From Aurantiochytrium sp. KH105 (taxonomy: Eukaryota > Sar > Bigyra > Thraustochytrida > Thraustochytriidae), in contig BGKB01000017.1 in assembly GCA_003116975.1 (NCBI GenBank), positions 496,001-560,000 of the forward strand: a DNA stretch of 64,000 nt, in the 5' to 3' direction. The notes beneath the pieces were generated by a model. That model was not told where the DNA came from and made no database searches. It saw only the letters and a list, made by a program, of their open reading frames with translations. Positions within the stretch are counted from its first letter, which is position 1. Each line of letters begins with the position of its first letter. Positions 8,473 through 64,000 of the stretch are shown piece by piece. A program made the translations under genes and the position numbers.

Positions 8473-11400
8473 TCACAAGAGTGGCACGCCGTAGAATGCT
8501 GCATTTGCCTTGACGCGAAGTTTGCGCGAGTCGTCGTCTGCACTATGCATTGCGTCCACCAAAAGAGGTGCCGTCGCCCCTTGCTTCATGCATGAGGCCA
8601 AGCGAGTCTGCATTTCAATGGCACGGTGAACCGTGCATGCCCACTGGTGCTGAACGATAGCATTTACACCGCACAGAGACAAGAGTGCAGCGGTCTCCAC
8701 GGGCTGTTTCAGTTGCAGCGCTGCGGCGCTCAAACTCGCCTCTTGCTCGCTTTGGAAACGGTACGAGGCGTCGTTCACGGCGCGATCAATCAGCACAGCG
8801 CTCCAGCAATGCCGCATGTCCAACGCGGCCACAGCGCCCGGGTCTACTTGCGCAAGGAAAGATCCGAGACCACTGAATAGGAACTGCTTATCATCCCCAC
8901 TTGCCAAAAGCGCCTGCCAGTCGCCTCGACTAGGAACGCCCATTTCGGCACCCACATGTCCCTGCCATGCGGTATCGGCTGTGAAGTTGTCCCGAAGACC
9001 GCTTTCTTCGCTCCGTGGGTCCACAACGTACCGTACACTTGTTGGACGTTGGCTCAAACGAACCTGGAAAGCTTCGTTGGCAGCCACCGCTTCTTGTAGA
9101 CCCGGCACCATCGACTGCATCCGTTGGTGAAACAGATGCAGCGAAAAGTCTCGAGATACGGAGAGGTACCGTTTCTGCATACGCGTCTGGAACGCTACGC
9201 AATCCTGAGCCCTCTCTTGGTCCTCGCCCTCGTCCTGGTCCTGATCTTCACCCTCTCCATCAATGGTTTTCGCCTCTTCTTCCTGTGGTTCTTGCTCGAA
9301 TAGAAGCTCAAGCGGTAGACGCGCGAGCAGAGGATCCGCCAGAATCACCAGTCGCTCCGAAGGCTCGGCGTCATCCTGTACTGGGGTAGCGTCGTTCTCA
9401 GCGTCGGCATTATCTCCTTCTCCCTCCGCTCGCAATATGGGGATTGCAGGCGCGAGCAATCGTCGCATTCGACGTGTGATGGCCTCAATGTCCTCCGAAG
9501 CCTTGTCCTCGAGCTTGCTTGCGCTGTCTTCAAAGCTCGCATCTTGGGTGCGACTCAGCAACTGAGAGCTCATCCTCTTCCGGCATGTCGAGATTTCTCG
9601 CACGAGAGAATGGAGCTCCTCTGCCTCTTCGGCAGCAAGAGGAAATTTGTTTGCTTTTGCTTTGACTTCATTGCGCTCGGTATCGTAGGATTTGCCATCA
9701 AGATGCGCACTGTACAGCACGCGGCCATTTTCGGACAAGGAGAGAACCAGGAACTCGACTGCGTCCGGCAACGACTTGAGCAAGGATGACACGCGCTGGC
9801 GACAGCTCAAGCGCTGGAGCTGCACACTCTCCCGAAGGAACTTGCTGACATCGGCATAGGGCCAACGTACTTTGGCATCTTTCTCTGCAGCCGATGCGTC
9901 CTCGCCTGCGGTCTTGGAGAGGTCCCCCGGAGAAAACAAACTTGCCTCAATGTGTGTTTGCAATCTCAGGAACTGACTCAACTTGCCCTCTCCGTCCAGC
10001 GCCGTTTCTTTGAGTAAATTGAACATCCACGCGCGAGCCCGACACGCTTGGTACAGTACCAGTGCCTCCGCCGACTCGTGCCCGAGTACGAGCTCGTGCG
10101 CTGCAATCTTCGCCAAATCGTAGTCATCGTGCGCCAACGCAGCCTCGATTCCATCGTAAAGGACTTTCTGGGCCCGCGCATCTTTGTTGCGGCAGAGACC
10201 CTGGCCAGCGGCAACCAGCGCGACCGCGGCACGTGCCGGCATATGATGAAGGTGCTTGTACGTACCCATAAAGTAGCTGCACGCACGCTGCGCGGCACCT
10301 GGATGGAGTTCCGCAAGTGTAGGAGGCGGGACGGGAGCAGTCTCCATGAGCCAGCGCTCGGCGGGATTCAGCTGTTCGATGCGTTCCGCTTCGCGCGCAG
10401 CAGATGATACTGCGGGCAATGGATTGCAAAAGGCGTCGTGGAGCAGCTCAATGCTTCCAAGCATGTTCTGCACGCGTCCCACGTATCGCTCAAGCGGAAG
10501 ATTCACCTCGTTCATGCCTGTGCAAAAAAGTTCAGAAGTCGGCAGCACCATTTGCAGCATGGCCTCACCACAACGACTCGCGCGAGATAAACCATCTACA
10601 ATCCGCGAAAAGGCCACGTGCTCCTGCTCCATGGCTTGCGTCTTGTACACCTCCATCCACATGGCACAGTGCATGAGCAAAATGTCCATCGTTGCAACGG
10701 ACGCACACTGCGGCTTGGTGGCAATGAGAATTCGGTCCTGTGCGTTGCGCAAGTGTTTCTGGCACTGTACCCATTCATCGCGCCAATTCGCGCCCTGCAG
10801 CGCCCTGACCTTGACTTCGGCAAAGAGCTGCTCTGCAACAAGCGTCTCCACGTAGCTTGTGGCGACTTCGAGGTCCAAGTCTTTGAGCGTGCCCATATTC
10901 TGAAGCTTGCTATTGTACACGGCAAGCGCCTTCTTCATGAGGGTGCTGGCGTCCGCACTGCGGTTTGCGCCACGCAAACAGGCCACAATTTCGCGAATGC
11001 AATGCAACCAATCGTTGACGTTTCCTCCGCGATGCTCATTAAGTGCGCCCATGGCTTCCACGGCGCGAGCAAGGGCTGCGCTCTCTTTGCCCTCGAGTAG
11101 TGCCACCTTTGCTGCCACAGTGGCCGCCCGAAAGGTGTTCTCCTTGTCCTCATATGCGTCATTGTGCAACGCGACCTCGTGCAAAAGCACCTTGCCTTCA
11201 AAGATGTAGCCCAGATCGACCAACTCGGATGCAAGGCGCGCCCACACTTCGCGAATCTTCATTGGGCCAAGCATGCGGCGCCTCGTGGGTTGTACGCCCG
11301 ACTTTGTCACGATTGCGTCCGGATCCTCGTCAAGCTCAGCAGATTCGGTGGAGCCGTCTGTTGGCGCGGACTCGATGCTGGCTCTTCTTGCGCGCTGTCG

Positions 11401-14400
11401 CACGGAGCGGTGCTGCAAGAGCTGCTCCACTTCGACCCCAAACCGGATGCGCTCCTCCTCGTTCAAGGAAATATCAATTTCGTTCATCTTGCTTCTCGCA
11501 GCAGCGCCCAGATTGATGAGAGACAGCGCTCGCACCGTCTTGAGCGCGGCGAGCGTGGCAAACGTGCGATCCTGGATCACATCGGCGCAGATTCGCTCCA
11601 TCATCACATAGCACGTGATGGCGAGAGCGTCCTGACCGCACTCTTGCAACAATGAGCCAAGCTCCAGGAGGTAATGAACGACAAGGTACGGTCGCTCGAT
11701 CGTCGCGGCTGCTGCGGCTGGAATCTTCGAGATCTTGGCATCCTCATTCTCTTCCGATCCCTCGTTTGCGTCCGCCAGGTCGGCACCTATGACCGTCAAT
11801 AGATTGCACTTGGACCCGGGTGCTACAAAACGCGTCCATGCAGAGGATAAATGCTCATGCGCAATAAGTGCCATGTCTGCCCGAATTTTAGAGTGCGGCA
11901 CAGAGCGTGCAAGCATGGCAAAGATCTGCACAAGTTTGAGCAGATCTCCAAGACGCAGCTCCCTCGGTGCATCTGCGCAAGGCTCCCCTAGCTCACGTGT
12001 TGCCTTGACGTTACGCTTTGGACTCGCAGAACGAATGGATCGACGCGAGTTTGACGTGACGAGTGAGCTAGGCGACTTCGGGGACATGGCTCCCTTGGCG
12101 CGAGCTTCTGCGGCTGCCTGCGCGCGCTTCTGCGCGGCGACCTCAACATCCAAGATTTGGTCCGCTGCAGAAACCAGACACTGCGTCACATCATCTCGAG
12201 AAAAGTGGTTGGCATGCAGCCATTCTGCAAACTCAATGAGGTACTCGACACGCTCGTACGAGCCTTCCAAGAGACTGAGCGCCTGCACATGTGCCTGCAA
12301 CTGATCCTCCTGATTCGCAGATGAAGTTGCCAAGGTCATCCAGGCCTTGGCTTGCAGAGACTTGTTGCCTTCCTTCATCTTGTGCAGACCTGCGGCAACA
12401 TCCTTGTTCAGTTTGCTGTTGAAAATAACCCGCGCGGCCCACAGTCGCTTTTGCAGACTCTGCGGTACGATGCGAAAAGCTTCATCGACCGCTTTAAGAC
12501 CTCCCTTCCAATCCTTAGTATCCTTGAAACACTCGAAAAGTGCCGCGTACATGGACACACGCAGCGCCATTTCAGATTTCTCCGACACAGCCGCGAGACA
12601 TTGTAGCATAGCTCGCAAAGGTTCGAATAGAATGCTACGTGTCCCGGCAGACCCGACAAGCGTAGTAGCCACATTCCAGAGCTCCTTGGCAGCATCCAGG
12701 ACGAGAGCGCCAACTTTGGCCCGTACACCGTGCTCCGCTGCACTGCGAAACATGCGCAAGCTCTCCTCACGAAGCATGTCCTGCGTTGTTTTGTCGTGCG
12801 TAATGGCTGCGGCACGCGCAGCCGCAACTTGTCCCTTGACGCACGAGCAAATGGCGTACCATCGCCAGAATTCCACGGGAACCTTGTGCGGCTGCACCTT
12901 TTGCTGAAAGCTCTGCGCAGATGGCGTCGTCATTCTGTCTTCTCCGTCCTGCGCCTTTCGCTGCTGGGATTGACCGTGTGAAGCGAGCGTCCGAAGGGCT
13001 GCTGAGCAAATGGTATCGGCAATATCCAGATTACCAATCTGGAAACTTTGTCGCCCGAGCCGCGTCCACACTTCGGTTGCCACGAGCTGGTCCGACCGGT
13101 CTGCGGCATGCAGGAGAAGGTCCTCCTGGCCTTGTATTTGACCCACGAAGGACTCCAAAAGTGATTGTTTCTCTTCCGGTGCAACAAAGCCCCCTTCGAG
13201 GCGTAAAAGCTCAATGACTGCAAATCCTCGGGCAAGAAGATCATCTGGAAGTGGCTGCGGCGACTTTCTCCGACGCTGGACGCGCTGCAGCGTGGAAATG
13301 AGCTCCTTGGCAATCCTCGGCGATTTGTCTGCAAGAGTTTGCATGCACACTTCCGCGGCACGACGCAAATCATCATCTGCATTTGCAGTCTGGCTCTGCA
13401 GCATTTGAGTTCGAAGAGCACGGCCTTCGAGACTTTGGGCGAGAGCACAGGCGACTGCACAGTACATTGTGTCATTGCGTTCCTCAGGGTCGAGCTCGGC
13501 AAGTGCAGAGACGACCTCTTGCAGGCCGTCGATGAGAGCATCCGTGACAAATTGAAAGCGCTGAATAGGCCCATTGAAGACATGAAGGTGAAAATTCCAC
13601 AGATAAGTGGCTGCGTTTTCAACGAGCCAGGATTCGCAAAGCGTGCTGCCGATCTTGAGAGCAGCAACAATTTGCTTCACCACCTCATCTTTGCGCTGAG
13701 GCAGGTCTTCTGGGAATGGAGCGTCTTGCCACGGTAGCCAGTCAAAAGTCAAGTCCGCGGGCGAGACAATGTTTCTGCTCTCTTCGGTGACTCTATTTGC
13801 GTCTTCCGGGTCCTCATCGAGCGAATCGTCAATCGCCTCCGGGTTCTCGATGGGTGTTGGAACAAGGAGGCCCAGAGTCCGAATGTGCATGTTTGCAACC
13901 TTGGGAACGAGGTCGTCCACAGGAACGGTCTGCAGCTGCCGCGCGAGGGCGTCTGCGAAGACAAAGTGCACACGAGCGCGCTGTAAAGACCACGATTTGG
14001 CATCGACACCTTCGGGTAAGTCTGTGGTATCCTCTTCGTTGTCGGAAACCAGCACGTGCTGCGCTGCGCGCTCGGTGAGTGGTAAAAGACGAAGAGTAGA
14101 AGCTAGTTGGGCGATCTCGGCCCAGAGCGCGATGCTTGTGACGTTGTGAGCAATCTGCTCGGGTGCACGGGCATCGGCGTCTTGACTTGCCGCTACTGCC
14201 CCTTCCTCCTTGTCCTCCGCCGCCGTTCCGGTATGATTGTGCTGCTCCCGACTCGACTGCTCGAGACTCTCGTCATGATGCTGATCCAGAAATGCTGCAG
14301 CGCGCATCAAAAGAGAAGCCTTGAGGTGCTTTTCTCCAGCATCTTTGGCCTGTTCGACCTGAAGAATGGCTTGCTCAAGCGGGTTCTCGGGCTCGTTGTA

Positions 14401-16065
14401 AATACTGGACTTGAGACGCAGTTTCTCTTGCATGGGTTTCAGAAAGCGAGTGAGGTCGCTATTGTTCTCGGCATTGGACTCTTGGTTCATTTGGCTGCTT
14501 CGTTGCAGGTGCATAGCCTTTTCTACCTGATCATTTGCGCGCTGCAAAAAGTCAGACGCCATCTCGCACTTTGCGAGCTCACTGTGAAGATGTGCGCGCA
14601 GCTCGAGCAGTGGCGAGTCAACCTCTTCGAGTGCGCTTGCAGCACTGGTAAATGCCTTGTGAACATGCGTCCGAAGATGCGGCTGCAAGAGTGGCAAGCC
14701 AATGTTCCAGGTCACGAGGCAAGTTTCCTCAAGAAGACCAGGCTGATGAAGGCGCAGACACAGAGAGATGCACCGGTCGAGAAGTCTCATGGCTTGGATG
14801 CGCTTCGCGAGGTTCATGGCCCGAGCCGTCTTTTCCGACGTCGCGGCGGCACCACTGCCTTTCGAACCCGAAAGTGGCCGTTGTCCCGTGCTCGCCATCT
14901 CCACCGTGGCAGTGGGACACTCTGCCAGCCATTCGGCGCGAAAGAGGTCAAGATCAACTTCGTCCACAGCCGTCCTGACACGAGCAGGCAAACGCACAGC
15001 AAGCGACATGCACTCTTCGCTCAGTTCGTAGAGGTGTGCGCGAAGTGCAGCGCGCCCTACACCAATGACCCCAATACTGGTGCGAGCATTTCTCGTCTTC
15101 GTTTCGTCATCTTGGTTGTCGCCATCCTCCGCGGCCTGGTTTCCTGCAGCCACAACAGTTTTCAGCGATTCTTGAAGTTCTGCCTCGATTCCTGCCTGAT
15201 CAGCGATAATCCCTGACCGAATGCATTGAAGAATGGGCCGCACGTCTCCCTGCGTGCGCGCCGTTTTCGCTGCCGCAAGTGCGCCTTGTTGCTGAATATG
15301 AACGCAGAGTGCATTTGTTTCACGCGCAATTTCGCTCGTAGGATCGACTTCTTGCACGAGGTCGAGAGCACGCTTCGCTTCGGCCTGGGCAGGGGCCTGG
15401 GCCCCGACCTCATTATGCGCCAGCGCGAGGGCCAGGCCGAGCCGCGCACGCCATGCCTTATGCGGGTCGTCAGCGGCATTGAGAGCCTCGCAGAGCTTGG
15501 AGAGGAGCTTGAGAGTGTGATGGCGGCACCCCTGACGCATGATTGGTCTCATGACCTGCCACGCGATCACTGAAGCGTTGTAGACGAGAAAGGAGTACGC
15601 GTCCTTGCGTACGGGATCAAGACAAACATCAACAGCGGCGTCAATATGCTTGGATGCAGAAAGTGCTCGTGACAGAACATCGCCTCGTTGCGGCGACTTG
15701 TGCTCGATGAGCGCTTTGACAAAGAGAGCTCGGCAATAGAACTGATCTCGTACCTTGCCTCGCGTGAAGCAAAGCTCTGCGCTCCTTTCTGCAATGACTA
15801 GCGCATCGAACTTAAGCGCTGCTTCCGCACAAATGACGAGTAGCTCCACGGCGATCCTCGGCTCGCCATTGTACTCGCACAAGAGCGCAAAGCAGGCCTC
15901 GAGTTCGTGTCGCGCTCTCGCGTGTTTGTCGGTCTCGTCTTCGCCGCTGTTTGTCTCTGGATGCTGCTCTTTTGCTTGCGCGCGACCACTGTCGGCACCT
16001 TCGATTCCAGCAACTTGAGCGTCTTCGCCGACGCGCAGTAGCCTCACGCGAAGTGCGTCCTCCAT
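8473..16065 (-). CDS. CFAP46: Cilia- and flagella-associated protein 46-like TPR protein
   Basis: A single 7.6-kb exon encodes 2530 residues, close to CFAP46/TTC40 (about 2700 in animals). CFAP46 is a scaffold of the C1d projection of the axonemal central pair. The N-terminal 400 residues hold helical TPR-like repeats and a CFAP46-type segment at about 153-190 (YSFLVYNASVIAWQVMRPI). Helical repeats continue through most of the chain, broken by acidic, disordered inserts. The last ~450 residues form a mixed alpha/beta domain with a CHAT-like layout (see findings). The C-terminus ends in a hydrophobic stretch, YGVPLL. The start is an ATG at 16065 with no in-frame alternative nearby. It is head to head with the IQ/SFI1-like gene across 801 bp. 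Its presence suggests the organism makes motile flagella. Confidence 0.82.
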   Translation of the reverse strand: MEDALRVRLLRVGEDAQVAGIEGADSGRAQAKEQHPETNSGEDETDKHARARHELEACFALLCEYNGEPRIAVELLVICAEAALKFDALVIAERSAELCFTRGKVRDQFYCRALFVKALIEHKSPQRGDVLSRALSASKHIDAAVDVCLDPVRKDAYSFLVYNASVIAWQVMRPIMRQGCRHHTLKLLSKLCEALNAADDPHKAWRARLGLALALAHNEVGAQAPAQAEAKRALDLVQEVDPTSEIARETNALCVHIQQQGALAAAKTARTQGDVRPILQCIRSGIIADQAGIEAELQESLKTVVAAGNQAAEDGDNQDDETKTRNARTSIGVIGVGRAALRAHLYELSEECMSLAVRLPARVRTAVDEVDLDLFRAEWLAECPTATVEMASTGQRPLSGSKGSGAAATSEKTARAMNLAKRIQAMRLLDRCISLCLRLHQPGLLEETCLVTWNIGLPLLQPHLRTHVHKAFTSAASALEEVDSPLLELRAHLHSELAKCEMASDFLQRANDQVEKAMHLQRSSQMNQESNAENNSDLTRFLKPMQEKLRLKSSIYNEPENPLEQAILQVEQAKDAGEKHLKASLLMRAAAFLDQHHDESLEQSSREQHNHTGTAAEDKEEGAVAASQDADARAPEQIAHNVTSIALWAEIAQLASTLRLLPLTERAAQHVLVSDNEEDTTDLPEGVDAKSWSLQRARVHFVFADALARQLQTVPVDDLVPKVANMHIRTLGLLVPTPIENPEAIDDSLDEDPEDANRVTEESRNIVSPADLTFDWLPWQDAPFPEDLPQRKDEVVKQIVAALKIGSTLCESWLVENAATYLWNFHLHVFNGPIQRFQFVTDALIDGLQEVVSALAELDPEERNDTMYCAVACALAQSLEGRALRTQMLQSQTANADDDLRRAAEVCMQTLADKSPRIAKELISTLQRVQRRRKSPQPLPDDLLARGFAVIELLRLEGGFVAPEEKQSLLESFVGQIQGQEDLLLHAADRSDQLVATEVWTRLGRQSFQIGNLDIADTICSAALRTLASHGQSQQRKAQDGEDRMTTPSAQSFQQKVQPHKVPVEFWRWYAICSCVKGQVAAARAAAITHDKTTQDMLREESLRMFRSAAEHGVRAKVGALVLDAAKELWNVATTLVGSAGTRSILFEPLRAMLQCLAAVSEKSEMALRVSMYAALFECFKDTKDWKGGLKAVDEAFRIVPQSLQKRLWAARVIFNSKLNKDVAAGLHKMKEGNKSLQAKAWMTLATSSANQEDQLQAHVQALSLLEGSYERVEYLIEFAEWLHANHFSRDDVTQCLVSAADQILDVEVAAQKRAQAAAEARAKGAMSPKSPSSLVTSNSRRSIRSASPKRNVKATRELGEPCADAPRELRLGDLLKLVQIFAMLARSVPHSKIRADMALIAHEHLSSAWTRFVAPGSKCNLLTVIGADLADANEGSEENEDAKISKIPAAAAATIERPYLVVHYLLELGSLLQECGQDALAITCYVMMERICADVIQDRTFATLAALKTVRALSLINLGAAARSKMNEIDISLNEEERIRFGVEVEQLLQHRSVRQRARRASIESAPTDGSTESAELDEDPDAIVTKSGVQPTRRRMLGPMKIREVWARLASELVDLGYIFEGKVLLHEVALHNDAYEDKENTFRAATVAAKVALLEGKESAALARAVEAMGALNEHRGGNVNDWLHCIREIVACLRGANRSADASTLMKKALAVYNSKLQNMGTLKDLDLEVATSYVETLVAEQLFAEVKVRALQGANWRDEWVQCQKHLRNAQDRILIATKPQCASVATMDILLMHCAMWMEVYKTQAMEQEHVAFSRIVDGLSRASRCGEAMLQMVLPTSELFCTGMNEVNLPLERYVGRVQNMLGSIELLHDAFCNPLPAVSSAAREAERIEQLNPAERWLMETAPVPPPTLAELHPGAAQRACSYFMGTYKHLHHMPARAAVALVAAGQGLCRNKDARAQKVLYDGIEAALAHDDYDLAKIAAHELVLGHESAEALVLYQACRARAWMFNLLKETALDGEGKLSQFLRLQTHIEASLFSPGDLSKTAGEDASAAEKDAKVRWPYADVSKFLRESVQLQRLSCRQRVSSLLKSLPDAVEFLVLSLSENGRVLYSAHLDGKSYDTERNEVKAKANKFPLAAEEAEELHSLVREISTCRKRMSSQLLSRTQDASFEDSASKLEDKASEDIEAITRRMRRLLAPAIPILRAEGEGDNADAENDATPVQDDAEPSERLVILADPLLARLPLELLFEQEPQEEEAKTIDGEGEDQDQDEGEDQERAQDCVAFQTRMQKRYLSVSRDFSLHLFHQRMQSMVPGLQEAVAANEAFQVRLSQRPTSVRYVVDPRSEESGLRDNFTADTAWQGHVGAEMGVPSRGDWQALLASGDDKQFLFSGLGSFLAQVDPGAVAALDMRHCWSAVLIDRAVNDASYRFQSEQEASLSAAALQLKQPVETAALLSLCGVNAIVQHQWACTVHRAIEMQTRLASCMKQGATAPLLVDAMHSADDDSRKLRVKANAAFYGVPLL

Positions 16066-16866
16066 GGTTCTTGGGAGGCTCCAATTCTTGCTACGGAAGG
16101 AGCCAAGGCCGACTGGTCTGCTCGCGAGCCAAGACGAGGGCTCCTGCCTCCGTTCGATCTGACAATGAGGCGGCCAGGCCGGCAGGCACGCAGCTGCAGG
16201 CTGCAGAGCTCGACGACACCCAGGTCCTGGGCCCTCGCTCGCTTGGTCCTTTCAAGTTGACAAGGCAAGCAAGCAGGCTTGGGCCTTCATTTGCTTGCTT
16301 GTTGCCGTTGCACGCCGCGGATGGTTACATGGCTCGCTCGCGTGCGACCGAACCTTGCTTCCGGTACATTATGTTCTTTTTCCGTATCTGGCACAATCAA
16401 TTCCCTGCCGCCAGAACGTGCTCGCACGTGCCTCCCGGCCGCTCGCTCGGCGTCGCGAACAACACGCTCGGCCGCGTTGCTGCGCCTCGCTGCGTCGCCG
16501 CTGTTGTGAGTGAAATGAGAGGCAATGAAGAGAAGAGAGAGCTGCAGTGCAAAACTTTGTTGCTGCGTCCTTTTTAGCGTAGGAGACATGAATCAAGTGT
16601 CCTGAAAGTACGCCCAACTCACTGTCAAGGAAGGCTTGCTTGACAGAAGTAGCACACACTGTTCTTGGGCACACGTTCGATCGGCGAGAACACAGCGAAA
16701 GCGCACGCGGTGAGTCGTCAAGCGAAACGCTGTACGTGAGCAGCTGCAGCGACAGCTGCAGCTGCATCACAATTATCGTCATTATTATCATCTGCGGCGG
16801 CAGCAGCACCGCCAGCACCACCACCAGGAGCACGAGCACCACCACCAGCAATAGCGGCGACGGCAG
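16066..16866. other. Divergent promoter region between CFAP46-like and IQ/SFI1-like genes
   Basis: About 0.8 kb without a convincing gene. Near the plus-strand start it contains CAGCTG-rich and CAC/AGC trinucleotide runs (about 16738-16860). It presumably drives both flanking genes. Confidence 0.55.
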
Positions 16867-24301: not shown

Positions 24302-24596
24302 CCAGCGCGAGAGGTAGCGCAGCGCGGCTGGCAGAGCGATAACAAGCTTGGCGAGCGCGCGACCAACCAGCGCGAGGACGGCGAGGAGGAGGTGCGCGAG
24401 GAGGGCAGCAGCAGCGGCAGCGGCGGCAGCAGCGCAGCGTAGGGTGGACGCGCGCCTGCGAGCGGACGGAGCAGCGTACCGTCCGTGCGGCCCGCAGGCG
24501 GAAGCGGCGAGCGGAAGAGGAGAAGAGGGGCAAGTATCTTTGGAGGCCAGCGAGTCTTGACGAGGCGGGCAGGCGAGCAGGCCTGTGGAAGAGACG

Positions 24597-26141
24597 ATGG
24601 CGGGCGCGTCGGAGAGCATGCGGCAGGCTGTGCAGGCCGGTCGCGGGCTGGTCAAGGACGTGGTGGACGCTCGGAGCGTGGAGCCCATGTACGAGGCCTT
24701 CAAGCAGTCGGAAACGATGCGCAACCTGAAACGCGGCGTGGACCGCCTGCTCAAGGCTGGAGGCTACACGGAGCCGTACCCCACGGAGGAGCAGCTGTTG
24801 GCGACCTTGAGTATCATGGCGCTTACGCTAATGCTGTACTATATCTTCTTCGGAAAGCGGCACCAGCACAAACGCGCCATCTTGGCCAACAAGCTGGCCG
24901 AGGCCGAACGCAAGGTGGCGGAGCTCGAACGGCAAATGGACGATCTCGACTCGGAGGACGAACTTTTCTGCGACGACGACAGGCCGATCCGTGTCTGGAT
25001 GGACGGTGCCTTTGACATGATGCACTACGGACACATGAACGCTTTCCGCCAGGGTCGTTCGCTGGGCAACTACCTCGTGGTTGGCATCAACAGCGACGAG
25101 AGCATCAAAGAGTGCAAGGGCACGGCGCCCGTCATGAACGACCAGGAGCGCTGCGGCGCCGTCAAGGGCTGCAAGTGGGTCGATGAGATTGTGCCCGGCG
25201 CCCCGTACGTGATGACCCCCGAGTATCTGAACTACGTCATCAAAAAGTACAAGATCGACTACGTGGTCCACGGCGATGATCCTTGCATCGTGGATGGCAA
25301 GGATGTGTACGAGGACGCCAAGCGACGCGGCATCTACCGGAGCATTCCGCGCACCGAGGGTGTGTCCACGACGGACATTGTGGGCCGGATGCTCTACCTT
25401 TCGCGCGACCACCACGAAAAGGGCCAGCACGAACGCCCCGACCTTGTTTCCCGCGAGCGCAAGCGGAGCAACTCAATGTCTTCAGTCACGTCGGAGGGCT
25501 CGTTGAACCCGGATGGGACCGTGAGCAGCGGATTCTTCCGGCCGTCGCGATTCTTGACGACCTCGCGCATGTTGCGAATCTTTTCTGCGGGCGCGCGCGA
25601 CCCGCCACCGGGCGCCCGCGTCGTCTACATTGACGGCGCCTGGGACATGTTCCACATGGGCCACGTCAAGACGCTGCAGCGCGCGCGCGAGCTTGGCGAC
25701 TACCTCATTGTGGGCGTCCATGGCGACAAGGTGGTCAACGAGCGCCGCGGCAAGAACTTCCCCATCATGAACCTCAACGAGCGTCTGCTGAGCGTGCTCG
25801 GATGCCGTTACGCGAGTGATGTGCTCATTGATGCGCCATGGCACATTACGCGGGAGATGATTGCGTCATTGCGAATTGACGTAGTGGCTCGTGGTACGGT
25901 GAGCGACCACCCGTATGACGTCGTCGAGACTTCATCGGCGTACAAGGTGCCCAAGGAGATGAAGATTTTGGAAACGATCAAGTCCGAGTCCGATCTTTCC
26001 GTGGAGGCGATCGTCAAGCGTATCCTCACGAATGAGGAAGTCTTCGCCAACAAGGTCGACAAGAAGATGAAGGCCGAGGGCGAGTACTATGCCAAGCGCT
26101 ATGGATTCGAGGCTGATGCAGACGCCGATGCCGACGAATGA
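24597..26141 (+). CDS. PCYT2: Ethanolamine-phosphate cytidylyltransferase with N-terminal membrane anchor
   Basis: A 514-residue ECT/PCYT2, the rate-limiting enzyme of the CDP-ethanolamine (Kennedy) pathway; it makes CDP-ethanolamine from CTP and phosphoethanolamine. Two cytidylyltransferase folds are present. The first has the CTP-binding HYGH motif at about 142 and the RTEGVSTTDIVGRML signature at about 255-269. The second has HMGH at about 352 but lacks the RTxGxSTT signature, as is usual for PCYT2. A hydrophobic helix at about 64-85 (LATLSIMALTLMLYYIFF) precedes the catalytic part, as in plant PECT1, so membrane tethering is likely. The inter-domain linker is Ser-rich (RKRSNSMSSVTSEGS). 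The ATG at 24597 is the first in frame. Confidence 0.95.
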   Translation: MAGASESMRQAVQAGRGLVKDVVDARSVEPMYEAFKQSETMRNLKRGVDRLLKAGGYTEPYPTEEQLLATLSIMALTLMLYYIFFGKRHQHKRAILANKLAEAERKVAELERQMDDLDSEDELFCDDDRPIRVWMDGAFDMMHYGHMNAFRQGRSLGNYLVVGINSDESIKECKGTAPVMNDQERCGAVKGCKWVDEIVPGAPYVMTPEYLNYVIKKYKIDYVVHGDDPCIVDGKDVYEDAKRRGIYRSIPRTEGVSTTDIVGRMLYLSRDHHEKGQHERPDLVSRERKRSNSMSSVTSEGSLNPDGTVSSGFFRPSRFLTTSRMLRIFSAGARDPPPGARVVYIDGAWDMFHMGHVKTLQRARELGDYLIVGVHGDKVVNERRGKNFPIMNLNERLLSVLGCRYASDVLIDAPWHITREMIASLRIDVVARGTVSDHPYDVVETSSAYKVPKEMKILETIKSESDLSVEAIVKRILTNEEVFANKVDKKMKAEGEYYAKRYGFEADADADADE

Positions 26142-48842: not shown

Positions 48843-49601
48843 TTACTTGGCCGCAGCCGGCGCCGTCTCGGACGAACCCATTTGGCTCTTGATCTTGCGG
48901 GCCAGCTGGTACGATCCAGTGACGGCGAGACTGCAGTTGACAGCAAAGAGGTTGTAGTTGACCGGGTTGATGACCATGCTGTAGCGCGACCAGATGAAGC
49001 CCGTGGCGGTGAGTGCGAGCTGCTGCGTGGTGCTGATGTTTTCGACGGGGCGGTCAAAGTCGACAATGTTGGACACGGAAAGCATCCACTTGAAGCTGGG
49101 CGCCCAAAAGTGGATCGTAAAGGGTCCGGCGGGGTGCTTCAAGAAGTTGGTGACGGGTGCCGGCATGTTGGCGCTGAGCGCGGCGGACTGGATACGGCCG
49201 CCAGAGAGACCAGCGCCGATGGCGGTGGCAACGACGGCGCCGTAGCCGAGCACGCTAAAGTTGCTCGTGCGAGGCTTGCCCTGTGCCTCGAGCTCATTCT
49301 GGTACTCGATGCCGCGCTTGAGCTGCACGAGCTGCGCGGCCTCGTTGAAGCCGTGGCAGGCGAAGAGCAGGTAGTTTCGGGGCTGCACGCGCCACGCGAA
49401 GAGCATGAAGAGGCCCGAGTAGATGGTCATCGTCGCCGTCATGGGCAGCGAGATCACCTCGGGGCCTTTGGTGCTCATGTCGAGCGCCGCTGCCGCCACG
49501 ATGCCCCAGTTGGCCACGGGGCCCCAGAAGTGCGTCGTTTTCCACCCATACTCCGGGTGCAGGAGCGCCGCCCGCGCCGCCGCCACGCTAAAGTTGGACA
49601 T
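48843..49601 (-). CDS. Fused mitochondrial pyruvate carrier, MPC1-MPC2 in one chain
   Basis: A 252-residue protein containing both carrier subunits. Residues about 15-100 are MPC1: THFWGPVANWGI, a Met/Thr-rich helix, and VQPRNYLLFACHGFNEAAQL. Residues about 148-236 are MPC2: HPAGPFTIHFWAPSFKW, then ATGFIWSRYSMVINPVNYNLFAVN. They are joined by a linker with an extra hydrophobic helix at about 114-134 (FSVLGYGAVVATAIGAG). Normally MPC1 and MPC2 are separate proteins that heterodimerise in the inner mitochondrial membrane to import pyruvate. This chain would carry both, in a 3+1+3 helix layout. The ATG at 49601 is clear and no stop interrupts the two halves. A lipoyl-domain protein is encoded upstream on the same strand. 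Confidence 0.95.
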   Translation of the reverse strand: MSNFSVAAARAALLHPEYGWKTTHFWGPVANWGIVAAAALDMSTKGPEVISLPMTATMTIYSGLFMLFAWRVQPRNYLLFACHGFNEAAQLVQLKRGIEYQNELEAQGKPRTSNFSVLGYGAVVATAIGAGLSGGRIQSAALSANMPAPVTNFLKHPAGPFTIHFWAPSFKWMLSVSNIVDFDRPVENISTTQQLALTATGFIWSRYSMVINPVNYNLFAVNCSLAVTGSYQLARKIKSQMGSSETAPAAAK

Positions 49602-49967
49602 CTCCTCCTAGCCGTCTGCGCTGCGCCCTTTCTCCTCTGCCTCGCTCGCTCCCTCGCGCGCCTCTGCTCGCGCGCCCGGCCTGCTTGCTTGCTTGCGCTC
49701 GCGCCTGCGCCTGCGCCTGCGCCTGCGCAGCTCTCGACGCAGCGGACTGTCTCGGCCTGGTCCGGGACGGACGATCGATCCGCTACACCCCGCTCGTGCC
49801 CGCGCGCTCCGCCTGGCCCCGCGGTCCTCGAGACGGCCCCGCTCCCCGCCGCTCCGCTGCCTCCCGCCCGCGAGCGCGACGTGCGCGGCGACGCTGCTGT
49901 GCTGCTCGGCGCCGAGCGAGACGGAGCTGCGATAGGATACTGCTCGTCGTCATCCGCGTCGCCTCCG

Positions 49968-50010
49968 CCATCGCATCGCATCTCATCGCCTCGCATCGCG
50001 TCGCATCGCG
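49968..50010. repeat. ATCGC pentamer microsatellite
   Basis: Imperfect 5-bp units (CATCG, CCTCG, CGTCG) within the GC-rich 5' flank of the MPC fusion. Confidence 0.8.
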
Positions 50011-50187
50011 CCACCCGAGCCGGCCGCGGCCGCCTTCCGCCTTCCGGCGCCGCGCCGCGCCGAGCTCGCCGGCTCGCCGCGCCGCGCTCGCCGGGCCCGA
50101 GCCCCGCGTCGCCGCGCGGACCCGATGTTTGCCCGACGGCGGCGACGAGGACGCGCCGGAAGGAAGACATCGACGGCGTCGCCGGAC

Positions 50188-50226
50188 CAGCAGCTGCAGC
50201 TGCTGCTGCAGCTGCTGCAGCTGCAG
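50188..50226. repeat. Self-complementary CAG/CTG tract
   Basis: A run of CAG, CTG and CAGCTG units that is nearly its own reverse complement, so it could fold into hairpins on either strand. Confidence 0.8.
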
Positions 50227-50871
50227 TGCTCGCGCGGCAGGCGAGGCGAGCGGCGATGGCGCCCGGAGCCCTGGGCAGCGGGCCCGGGGCGAGGATGGGG
50301 CGAGGCGAGCGGCCGGGGCGGCGGAGGCCACGCGCGGCGCGACTGCGAGCGCGCGCTGCGCGTCATTGGCGACGTAGGCGGCGGGAAGAGCGACGGGCGG
50401 GACTCACAAACACGCGCACACCAGCAGCTGCAGCGGCACAAGCAGCACGAGCACGGCGAGGGAACAGGAGGGAGAGGGGCCAGGGGTGGCCGGGTCCTGT
50501 GGTGAGATTGCGACAGGGAAGAAGCTGGTCAACGACAAGAGGGTAGAAATAGATAAGAGGTCAGGACGCGGGAAACAAGGCTGGCTGACTGACTGACTAA
50601 CTGGGGATCACAGAGAAAGGCTGCTGGTTGGTTCGTTTATTCATAGACACGGGCACGGCGAGCGCGCCCGAGACGAGACGATCGTCGACGGATGCTCGAA
50701 AGGCGGCAGCCTGTCACACACATTCATTCGCAGACCAGCCGGATACTTGTTCTACCAAGCCCAAGGCGATGGCAGGCACGTAGAGAACTTGATCTCTCTA
50801 TTCTATAGTCTTCTCCGCACGCCCGTGCAATGATGTATGTATGTATCCAGCCAAAAGAAACGCGACGATCA

Positions 50872-51007: not shown

Positions 51008-51718
51008 TTACGCCGAAGGGGTGGCAGACTTGTGCTGGCGCATGCCAGTGATGCCAAACTGGGCCTCAAAGTCGGTCTGCGACTTGTCGAGGATGGCCTG
51101 CAGCGGCGACTTCATCTTGGGGAGATCCTGCTTGGGGCGCTTGGGAGCGGCCTTGGGCTCCTCCTTGGGGGCCTCCGGGGCAGGCGGCGCCGGCGCCGGC
51201 GCGGGGGCGGGCGCGGCCTCCTTCTTGGGCTCTTCCTTCTTGGGCTCCTCCTTCTTGGGGGCCTCGGCGGCCTTGGGCTCCTCCTTCTTGGGGGCCTCCG
51301 CCGGAGCGGCGCCGCCGGCGTCGGCGGCGGTAAAGTCCTTGAAGGCCTCGATGTCGCCTTCGTCCTCGACCATGACACCGATGGGCGTGCCGACGGCGAC
51401 GTCCGAGGTGCCGGCCTCGACGAGGATCTTGGCAAGAAATCCATCATCCTGGGCCTCGAAGTCCACGGTGGCCTTGTCGGTCTCGACCTCGCAGATGGAC
51501 TCGCCGGGGCTGATGGCATCGCCCACCTTGAGCGTCCACCCGGCCACGCCGCCGCTCTCCATGGTCGGCGACAGCGCCGGCAGCGTCAGCACCGTGTGGC
51601 TCGGCCACGACGCCATGCTGCGCGCCGCGAGCGCGCGCGTCGCGCCGCCCATCGTCCTGCCGGCCGCGCGCCGCGCGCCATAGGCGCGGGCGGCGCCGCG
51701 TCCTGCCACGCGGAGCAT
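51008..51718 (-). CDS. Mitochondrial lipoyl-domain protein lacking the E2 catalytic domain
   Basis: A 236-residue protein. The first ~35 residues are an Arg/Ala-rich mitochondrial presequence. Residues about 42-120 are a biotinyl/lipoyl domain ([17 protein letters not shown]), with the lipoylated lysine K82 in [12 protein letters not shown], as in pyruvate dehydrogenase E2 or E3-binding protein. A Glu/Lys/Pro/Ala-rich mobile linker follows (about 135-195), then a short C-terminal segment ([19 protein letters not shown]). There is no peripheral-subunit-binding domain and no acyltransferase domain. It may be a swinging-arm or assembly component of pyruvate dehydrogenase, or a lipoyl carrier of its own. 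The ATG at 51718 was chosen because the frame upstream is low-complexity. The MPC fusion lies downstream on the same strand. Confidence 0.85.
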
Positions 51719-52275
51719 GCTCCCTTTCCGCCGCTGCTGCTGCTGCTGCCCCGCCGCTTCTCGCCGCTCGCCGCGCTGCTGCCGCTGCAGATGCCGCGCG
51801 ATCTGCTGCTGCTGCCCGCCGGAGATCGCGTTCTGGCCGCGGCCACCAGCGCCGCCGTCGTCGCCGCCTCCATCGCCTCCATCGCCGCCGTTCTGGGCGG
51901 CCTCTTTTGTGCTTGCCGCCGCCACAAACTGCGCCCCGCGCAGTCGCACCGCGTCTGCACCGCCGCCTCCGCGCCTCTGCCGCGCCGCGCCGCGCCGCGC
52001 CGCGCCGCCCCTCGCGCGCGGACGCGCCGCCGCGGCGTGCCGCGCAAGCACGGGCGGCGCAGGTCGTGCATGCCGCGTGGAGAAGAAGCCCGGGCGGGCC
52101 GAGGAGGCCGGGCGCAGGCGCCTTGGCCTCGCTGCTCGGCCCGGCGGAAACAATGTTCGATGTCGAGAGCCCGGGACCAAAGCCAAGAGCAACGCAAAGC
52201 AAATCGATCGATCACGAAGGGAAGAAAGCCCTCCAGCCTAAAGCGGTTGGACTTAAGGGATAGAACGGACGCACG
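51719..52275. other. GC-rich low-complexity upstream region of the lipoyl gene
   Basis: GCC/GCTGCT/CGCCG trinucleotide and pentamer repeats (GCCGC near 51988-52010). Open frames on both strands are compositional. The promoter of the lipoyl gene is presumably here. Confidence 0.6.
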
Positions 52276-61324: not shown

Positions 61325-64000
61325 TTATCGGCGGAAAGGTTTCTTGCTCCAACAGAAAAGAGCCGAGACCTTGAGAGGCAGGCGTTTGGCCGTTAATCTC
61401 CGGAGCTGTTCTTCTGACTTGACTGTCAATGGATGTTCGGCACCCAATTTATCTTGACGAATGGAAAGTGCCCGCTGTGACACGGCAGCGTCATGCGTCG
61501 CCTCTGCGAGCCAGTATAGCGATTCTGCGGTCGAATCGTGATCCACGCCCAAGCGTTCTTCCCGAATCTCCAAGGACTTTTGCATCGCAGCAACAGCCTC
61601 GCCACGCCTAGCACCGCCTAAACCCATCAGAGCACGACCCTTGGCGAGCCAGGCAAAGCTAAGGCGGGGGTGTGAGTCGTCGGACGCAAAAACGATGCTT
61701 AGAATTTCCAAGGACGCGTCAGCATTCTCAAGAGCCTCATCGAATCGCATGAGGTCAGACAATGTGAATGACATCCAGTACTGCACAAAGGCCACACCAT
61801 CATTCCTTGGCCCACACTTTTCTATTTTGATACTGAGAGCCTCCTTGTACAGCTTAAGAGCTTCGTTGTACTGCCCCTGGAAGGAAAGAACATTGGCCAT
61901 ATTGTACATTATAGTTGCCGTTTCAGGGTGCTTCGCTCCATATTTCTCCTTAAAGATCTCCAAAACCTCACGGTATAGCTTGAGGGCTGCGTCATAATGG
62001 CCTCGACGATAGAGAACGACGGCCATGTTATTCATTGTGCTTGCTGTTCCAGGGTGCCTCGGCCCGAGCTTTTCCTTTTTGATCTCGAGAACTTGCTGGT
62101 CCAGCTCGATCGCTGCCTCATACTGACCCTGCGAATCGAGCACGCCAGCAATGCTGGCCATCGTCGCGGCCGTTGAATCATGGGTTGGCCCGAGCTTTTC
62201 TTTTCTGATTTCCAGCACCTCATAATACAGCTCGAGCGCTGCGTCGTACTGGGCCTGCAAATAGAGCACGTTAGCAATATTGGCCATCGTCGTCGCCGTT
62301 GAAGGGTGCCTCGGTCCGAGCTTTTCTTTTTGGATCTCAAGAACCTCATAATACAGCTCGAGCGCTGCATCGTACTGGGCCTGCGATTTGAGCACGCCAG
62401 CAATATTGGCCATCGTCGTCGCCGTTGACGGGTGCCTCGGTCCGAGCTTTTCTTTTTCGATCTCAAGAACCTCATAATACAGCTCGAGCGCTGCATCGTA
62501 CTGGGCCTGCGAATGGAGCACGCCAGCGATGTTGTACATCACCGCCGCCGTTGAATCATGGGTTGGCCCGAGCTTTTCTTTTCTGATTTCCAGCACCTCA
62601 TAATACAGCTCGAGCGCTGCATCGTATTCGCCCTGCGAATCGAGCACGCCAGCGATGCACTCTATCGTCATCGCCGTCGACGGGTGCCTCGGTCCGAGCT
62701 TTTCTTTTTCGATCTCAAGAACCTCATAATACAGCTCAAGCGCTGCGTCGTACTGAGCCTGCGAATGGAGCACGCCAGCGATGTAGTACATCACCGCCGC
62801 CGTTGAATCATGGGTTGGCCCGAGCTTTTCCTTTCTGATTTCCAGCACCTCATAATACAGCTCGAGCGCTGCGTCGTACTGGGCCTGCGACTCCAGCACG
62901 CCAGCAATATTTGACATCGTCGTCGCCGTGTCAACGTGCTTCGGCCCGAGCTTTTCCTTTCTGATTTCCAGCACCTCATAATACAGCTCGAGCGCTGCGT
63001 CGTACTGGCCCTGCGTACGCAACACAAGAGCAATACCGGCCATCGTCGTCGCAGTATAAGGGTGCCTCGGTCCGAGCTGTTCCTTTCTAATTTCCAGCAC
63101 CTCTTGGTAAAGCTTCAATGCTGCGTCGTATTGGCCCTGCGAATACAACACACCAGCCATATTGTGCATCATCGTCGCCGTTTCAGGATGTCTCGATCCG
63201 AGCTTTTCCTTGTCGATCTCGAGAACTTGTTGGTATAGCTCGAGCGCTGCGTCGTCCTGGCCCTGGGATCTAAGAACGATGGCAATATCGGCCATCGTCG
63301 TCGCCGTGCAAATATGTCTCGGCCCGAGCTTTTCCTTGCGAATCTCAAGAACTTCTTGAAAAATTTTTAGCGCTGCGTCGTACTGGCCCTGGGATCTAAG
63401 AACGCGAGCGAGACAATTCATCGTGTTTGCCGTTACTGGGTGCCGCGGTCCGAGAATTTCTTTTTCTATCTCGAGAACGTCTTGGTGCAGCTCCAGGGCT
63501 GCGTCATACTGACCCTGCAAATCTCGCATGTCAGCAATGCTGTGCATCGCCCCCGCCGTTGATGGGTGCTTTGGCCCAAGCATTTCCTTGTTAATCTCGA
63601 GGACTTGCTCGTACAGCTCGAGCGCTGCGTCGTACTGGCCCTGCGAATGCAGCACGCCAGCAATATCGGTCATCGTCGTCGCCGTGCCAGGATGTCTCGG
63701 CCCGAGCTTTTCCTTGCGAATCTCGAGGACTTGCTGGTATAGCTCGAGCGCTGCGTCGTACTGGCCCTGCGAATGCAGCACGCAAGCGGTACATGCCATT
63801 GTGTTTGCCGTTGCTGGGTGCCGCGGCCCGAGACTTTCTTTTTGTATCTCGAGAACGTCTTGGTGCAGATCCAGGGCTGCGTCATACTGACCCTGCACGT
63901 TTAGTATGTCAGCAATCATGTGCATCGCCACCGCGGTTGACGGGTGTCTCGGCCCCAAATTTTCTCTGTCGATCTCAAGAACCTGCTGAAAAAGCCCGAG
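61325..64000 (-). CDS. Kinesin-light-chain-type TPR protein (5' end beyond window)
   Basis: At least 891 residues, open to the window edge, so the N-terminus is missing. It is built of about 18 TPR units of 42 residues, of the kinesin light chain/nephrocystin-3 type, each reading roughly LGPRHPxTATTMxNIAGVLxSQGQYDAALELYxEVLEIxKEK. The DNA repeats with a period of 126 bp and high identity. Units 10-13 show a dimeric pattern. The last ~150 residues diverge (ASDDSHPRLSFAWLAKGRAL and a final TPR-like pair) and end in a basic tail (AKRLPLKVSALFCWSKKPFRR). These proteins act as peptide-binding scaffolds; with no other domain in view, the specific function is unknown. N-terminal domains such as NB-ARC may lie beyond 64000. 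Confidence 0.9.
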   Translation of the reverse strand, partial: LGLFQQVLEIDRENLGPRHPSTAVAMHMIADILNVQGQYDAALDLHQDVLEIQKESLGPRHPATANTMACTACVLHSQGQYDAALELYQQVLEIRKEKLGPRHPGTATTMTDIAGVLHSQGQYDAALELYEQVLEINKEMLGPKHPSTAGAMHSIADMRDLQGQYDAALELHQDVLEIEKEILGPRHPVTANTMNCLARVLRSQGQYDAALKIFQEVLEIRKEKLGPRHICTATTMADIAIVLRSQGQDDAALELYQQVLEIDKEKLGSRHPETATMMHNMAGVLYSQGQYDAALKLYQEVLEIRKEQLGPRHPYTATTMAGIALVLRTQGQYDAALELYYEVLEIRKEKLGPKHVDTATTMSNIAGVLESQAQYDAALELYYEVLEIRKEKLGPTHDSTAAVMYYIAGVLHSQAQYDAALELYYEVLEIEKEKLGPRHPSTAMTIECIAGVLDSQGEYDAALELYYEVLEIRKEKLGPTHDSTAAVMYNIAGVLHSQAQYDAALELYYEVLEIEKEKLGPRHPSTATTMANIAGVLKSQAQYDAALELYYEVLEIQKEKLGPRHPSTATTMANIANVLYLQAQYDAALELYYEVLEIRKEKLGPTHDSTAATMASIAGVLDSQGQYEAAIELDQQVLEIKKEKLGPRHPGTASTMNNMAVVLYRRGHYDAALKLYREVLEIFKEKYGAKHPETATIMYNMANVLSFQGQYNEALKLYKEALSIKIEKCGPRNDGVAFVQYWMSFTLSDLMRFDEALENADASLEILSIVFASDDSHPRLSFAWLAKGRALMGLGGARRGEAVAAMQKSLEIREERLGVDHDSTAESLYWLAEATHDAAVSQRALSIRQDKLGAEHPLTVKSEEQLRRLTAKRLPLKVSALFCWSKKPFRR

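Follow-up and report, generated by a model that had tools for sequence, protein, structure and literature searches.

A thraustochytrid open reading frame predicted to encode a natural single-chain MPC1-MPC2 pyruvate carrier

MPC1 and MPC2 normally pair as a heterodimer that brings pyruvate into mitochondria. The manner in which these subunits assemble was disputed (PMC10216714 and PMC12007569, both cited here from excerpts). Cryo-EM of human MPC1L/MPC2 has shown the parallel three-helix subunits on which the original prediction for this locus relied, and the orientation proposed for the carrier reverses earlier proposals (PMC12007569). The same excerpts name bacterial semiSWEET as the closest structural resemblance to MPC, and state that an extra helix links the domains of SWEET and cystinosin. 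Single-chain forms of the carrier are also on record. Medrano-Soto et al. 2020 (PMC7176098, likewise excerpted) report several 7-TMS MPC proteins with a 3+1+3 layout, including C5K6B0 (UniProt; TC 2.A.105.1.8), in which the best match is an MPC1 homologue for TMSs 1-3 (46.7%) and an MPC2 homologue for TMSs 5-7 (55.3%).

The gene analyzed here has the same order, and most likely the same layout, as these proteins in their published description, with an MPC1-like part first, an MPC2-like part second and one predicted central TMS between them in a 3+1+3 arrangement. The single-chain MPC1-MPC2 layout is therefore not new, having been described in 2020, and because such 7-TMS MPCs have been reported (PMC7176098) the gene belongs to a kind already in print. 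Our literature search found no published work on the pyruvate carrier of thraustochytrids or of Perkinsus, nor any when worded for a fusion. Accessions beginning with C5K, we presume, are those of Perkinsus marinus.

The window, by which we mean the whole 64-kb stretch of Aurantiochytrium sp. KH105 DNA that was analyzed, has a GC content of 57% and contains long open frames; no tRNA (bacterial code) or Rfam matches were found within it. The open reading frame had been predicted at exactly the right coordinates and is unbroken, and its strand, which had been left unstated, is minus (Table 1). The start codon ATG occupies 49601-49599 and the stop codon TAA 48845-48843, with an in-frame TAG at 49608-49610, 9 bases (three codons) 5' of this ATG.

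Table 1. Coordinates of the fusion gene and its parts within the window
Feature	Position	Strand	Remarks
MPC1-MPC2 fusion gene	48843..49601	minus	single unbroken ORF, 252 codons/252 aa, no internal stop
N-terminal segment, residues 1-21	49539..49601	minus	helix expected from comparison with human MPC1
MPC1 unit, residues 22-102	49296..49538	minus	three transmembrane helices expected
H83 codon, equivalent of essential His (MPC1 H84, MPC1L H86)	49353..49355	minus	by alignment
Linker, residues 103-144 (42 aa)	49170..49295	minus	between MPC1 and MPC2 units
Linker helix, residues 115-133, predicted fourth transmembrane helix	49203..49259	minus	by hydropathy
MPC2 unit, residues 145-235	48897..49169	minus	three transmembrane helices expected
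K171 codon, equivalent of essential Lys (MPC2 K49)	49089..49091	minus	by alignment

A Pfam scan of the protein matches PF03650 (MPC) in two stretches with 213.5 bits (E 5.8e-64) against a cut-off of 27, far exceeding chance. No other Pfam family is found at E up to 1, including the SWEET (PF03083) and PQ-loop models, and NCBIfam, a prokaryote library, assigns no family. When the PDB was searched by sequence (E up to 0.01), all ten distinct sequences matched were MPC proteins, among them the human MPC entries 9mnw, 8yw6 and 9giv. Residues 22-102 align with MPC1 and residues 145-235 with MPC2, the best E being about 9e-25 for both halves. All four motifs named in the prediction are present: FWGPVANWG at residues 25-33, QPRNYLLFACH at 73-83, FWAPSFKW at 165-172 and GFIWSRYS at 201-208.

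Such a frame could in principle arise from an assembly join between separate genes, or could yield two products if translation of an MPC2 protein began separately at M146. That codon does have A at -3, and the fusion is known here from one sequence. However, the frame runs through the join without a stop, and the linker itself reads as coding. Using a codon table built from six ORFs of the window, the linker, with a GC3 of 0.81, scores 0.31 per codon in frame and the parts on either side of it 0.20 and 0.19; in the other five frames the linker scores 0.22 or less. Initiation at M146 would have to contend with four in-frame ATGs after M1 (M42, M54, M58 and M66) and two out-of-frame ATGs that precede it. 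A search of the ORF for GTRAG and GTAT finds two GTAT only (0-based positions 50 and 406), and proteins with such a layout have already been published (PMC7176098, in excerpt). We consider a join or a second product highly improbable. Removal of the linker by splicing is likewise thought unlikely, given its coding-like codon use and the absence of donor-like sites other than the two GTAT.

The plus strand carries an ORF of 554 codons at 48882-50546 that runs antisense over almost all of the fusion gene. In each of the three segments its codon score is lower than the score of the MPC frame, and it is most likely a shadow of high GC3.

The identity of each half was assessed by alignment. The MPC1 unit is identical to human MPC1 in 47 of 81 alignment columns, and the MPC2 unit to human MPC2 in 45 of 91. 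The N half scores 235 against human MPC1 and 109 against human MPC2, whereas the C half scores 237 against human MPC2 and 103 against human MPC1; this half-by-half scoring uses only the human MPC1 and MPC2 fragments from the PDB search. The predicted order of MPC1 followed by MPC2 is thus borne out, with each half scoring about twice as high against its own human type and with PF03650 occurring twice. Because these own-type scores compare with just 79 between the halves (26 of 89 alignment columns identical), the halves by this measure are two old paralogues. For the same reason, a recent tandem duplication of one unit was rejected.

An older duplication inside one gene, in which a 4-TMS precursor was doubled and its first helix lost, is the origin that Medrano-Soto et al. 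favored for the 7-TMS proteins, while leaving a fusion of types 1 and 2 possible (PMC7176098, in excerpt). The homology of the halves is in keeping with such an event. On the other hand, each half is nearer to its own human type than to the other half, as far as human fragments can tell, and the split between the halves is thus probably as old as that between MPC1 and MPC2. We regard duplication as unlikely for this gene. Fusion fits better, since each half is clearly of one type, and this assignment of the halves is a point that the present analysis adds to the published description.

A further addition is that both halves of a fused MPC retain pocket residues defined by the 2025 structure. 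The pocket as listed in the excerpted text of PMC12007569 comprises 12 residues: S35, L38, Y64, F68, F71, L82 and H86 of MPC1L, which correspond to N33, L36, Y62, F66, F69, L80 and H84 in human MPC1, and K49, T78, W82, N100 and L96 of MPC2. The fusion protein shares 11 of these 12 with human MPC1 or MPC2, the exception being a Leu-to-Ile change (MPC1 L36 = I34). Those retained include the equivalents of MPC2 K49 and MPC1L H86, the two human residues whose replacement by alanine fully abolishes the pyruvate-binding signal (PMC12007569, in excerpt). Also kept are MPC2 Y85 and both prolines described as cis (MPC1 P75 and MPC2 P91). Several other positions have changed. Two cavity residues taken from a figure legend of PMC12007569 are replaced (MPC1L L61 by M58, MPC2 V103 by L225), as are MPC2 G51 (by M173) and G56 (by N178), and K66 of the human E51-K66 salt bridge reads N188.

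Near-complete retention of the pocket also bears on whether the fusion might be an extra, diverged or silent copy, with separate MPC1 and MPC2 genes elsewhere doing the work. Our comparison covered the 64-kb window, which leaves room for copies elsewhere in the genome. Searched against these 64 kb, neither half finds anything beyond itself and the other half except two short weak matches (E 0.034 and 0.72). Nearly all pocket residues are kept and codon use is coding-like along the ORF, features that would together argue for constraint, and we judge it improbable that the fusion is such a redundant copy.

The original prediction also placed a hydrophobic helix at residues 114-134, and this holds as a hydropathy peak. 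The Kyte-Doolittle mean over 19 residues reaches its maximum for the whole protein, 1.55, at 115-133; the best values elsewhere are 1.47 in the MPC1 part and 1.16 in the MPC2 part. By a second scale, for membrane insertion, the linker helix ranks second to the helix at 54-72 with a window of 19, first at 21 and equal at 23. Residues 112-135 form a run of 24 without charge, bounded by R111 and R136. For residues 115-132 the mean Eisenberg hydrophobicity is 0.69 with a moment of 0.13, values that do not fit an amphipathic helix lying on the membrane surface.

The height of the peak is unusual, but by itself is not beyond chance. When the linker is shuffled, 735 of 20000 versions reach 1.55, as do 388 of 5000 random linkers with the same position-specific base make-up. 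So do 317 of 9084 segments from ten other hand-picked ORFs of the window, 221 of these coming from one mannosyltransferase-like ORF. Such hydropathy therefore cannot be called rare for coding DNA rich in GC. Among 20000 linker shuffles, 1157 contain 24 consecutive residues without charge. The peak carries weight because of its position: joining two parallel three-helix units calls for an odd number of membrane crossings in the connecting segment, where a single strong candidate lies.

A linker that lies on the membrane surface or is re-entrant, with the MPC2 unit inverted or paired with the MPC1 unit of another chain in a swapped dimer, would be compatible with the frequency of such peaks among the random linkers. 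Loop charges also provide no support for the parallel layout. With loop boundaries set by us, K/R number 9 and D/E 7 in the four loops assigned to the matrix, compared with 6 and 1 in the four assigned to the intermembrane space, such that a positive matrix side is not shown under the proposed topology. AlphaFold models are of low confidence, with a mean pLDDT of 34 for the protein alone without relatives and 46 for residues 1-144 with residues 140-252 as a second row. Both models draw a separate helix in the linker, at 115-132 or 118-132; this is weak evidence because the first of them also shows strands within the opening helix of the MPC2 unit. Against a linker that does not span the membrane stand its high mean hydrophobicity, low moment and 24 residues without charge. 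Moreover, the human pocket, nearly all of which is identical here, demands parallel units, and 42 residues with one helix suit a single crossing. We therefore consider a non-spanning linker quite unlikely.

The 3+1+3 layout is most likely, as predicted from the one uncharged, non-amphipathic hydrophobic helix that the linker holds. The earlier claim of exactly one extra crossing is supported in that a single strong hydrophobic linker helix is present, although the loop charges lend the layout no support and the low-confidence models do not confirm it. Overall, the observation underlying the original prediction is confirmed and its interpretation is supported.

Human MPC1/MPC2 and MPC1L/MPC2 (PMC12007569, in excerpt) share with the fusion protein both units, the conserved pocket and the essential Lys and His. 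They differ in consisting of two chains with no linking helix, and in having an amphipathic helix before each unit. In the fusion protein, residues 1-18 are calculated to be weakly amphipathic (mean hydrophobicity 0.21, moment 0.21), and the low-confidence AlphaFold models draw a helix at 3-14 or 6-12. Ahead of the MPC2 unit, the human helix-turn-helix network of D18, E21, N33 and R39 reads A, S, K and F, the equivalents of D18 and E21 being placed by ungapped extension past the aligned part; this network is absent from the fusion, as is salt-bridge residue K66. Such a loss is what one would expect were a membrane helix to stand in place of the amphipathic one, and the absence of this MPC2 turn network where the linker helix precedes the MPC2 unit is likewise new here. 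SWEET and cystinosin resemble the predicted protein in that units are joined in one chain by an extra transmembrane helix (PMC12007569, in excerpt), but the fusion has no sequence match to them and is assigned by Pfam to MPC only. Bacterial semiSWEET, unlike the fusion, is a homodimer of separate chains and carries sugars. The protein, SWEET-like in its predicted layout, is an MPC by family membership.

Searches for relatives covered viral, plasmid, phage, bacterial and archaeal DNA, and therefore say little on eukaryotes. In viral and genome contigs, none was confirmed for the whole protein (6 and 28 pattern candidates) or for the MPC1 half (6 and 29), and none for the MPC2 half in viral contigs (36 pattern candidates). 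Comparison with plasmids and phages by tblastn yielded no confirmed relative.

Other ORFs of the window were also noted. A minus-strand ORF at 51008-52237, which lies upstream of the MPC gene at a distance of about 1.4 kb, contains a lipoyl domain closest to that of pyruvate dehydrogenase E2 (E 1e-53). Pfam finds no E2 catalytic domain in this ORF, and the motif HxxxDG (with I, L or V as the fourth residue) does not occur on the minus strand in the interval that separates the ORF from the MPC gene. Its stop codon overlaps GTAAGG, a possible splice donor. The ORF is a candidate for a lipoyl-only or X-like subunit adjoining the pyruvate carrier gene. Farther away, a minus-strand ORF of 2592 codons (8476-16251) matches the N-terminal TPR domain of ciliary CFAP46, a match that, in so long a frame, suggests a flagellated eukaryote with few introns. 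A long TPR array on the minus strand at 61328-64000 (TPR_12 in 16 stretches, also nephrocystin-3 TPR) runs off the window end. The plus-strand ORF at 24561-26138 has two cytidylyltransferase-like stretches, which we take to be the arrangement of ethanolamine-phosphate cytidylyltransferase.

We conclude that the gene very probably encodes a natural single-chain mitochondrial pyruvate carrier, in which one transmembrane helix would link an MPC1 subunit to the MPC2 subunit that follows it, and that the protein is most likely a pyruvate/proton carrier. Its likeliest origin would be fusion of existing MPC1 and MPC2 genes. By homology, and in the orientation proposed in PMC12007569, the chain would begin in the intermembrane space and cross the membrane three times as the MPC1 unit, which would end in the matrix. 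The linking helix would then bring the chain back to the intermembrane space, allowing the MPC2 unit to enter parallel to MPC1, make three crossings and end in the matrix. The two units would pack on each other like those of the human heterodimer, and pyruvate would be moved with a proton by rocker-switch alternating access. In such a mechanism, K171 would provide a fixed positive charge that attracts pyruvate, and H83 would act as the proton-sensing residue that takes up and releases the proton.

If the chain is made whole, it follows that 1:1 stoichiometry is fixed, and a natural covalent MPC1-MPC2 chain would impose this pairing by its own build. Such a chain could be used in transport and structural studies with no need to co-express two subunits. 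It is a serious possibility, although not the outcome we would expect, that the protein is the sole pyruvate carrier of the organism and acts as a self-sufficient seven-helix monomer, and that protist single-chain MPCs are old or of more than one origin, a mitochondrial repeat of the semiSWEET-to-SWEET step. If functional, this carrier would show a route from a two-chain to a one-chain transporter of SWEET layout.
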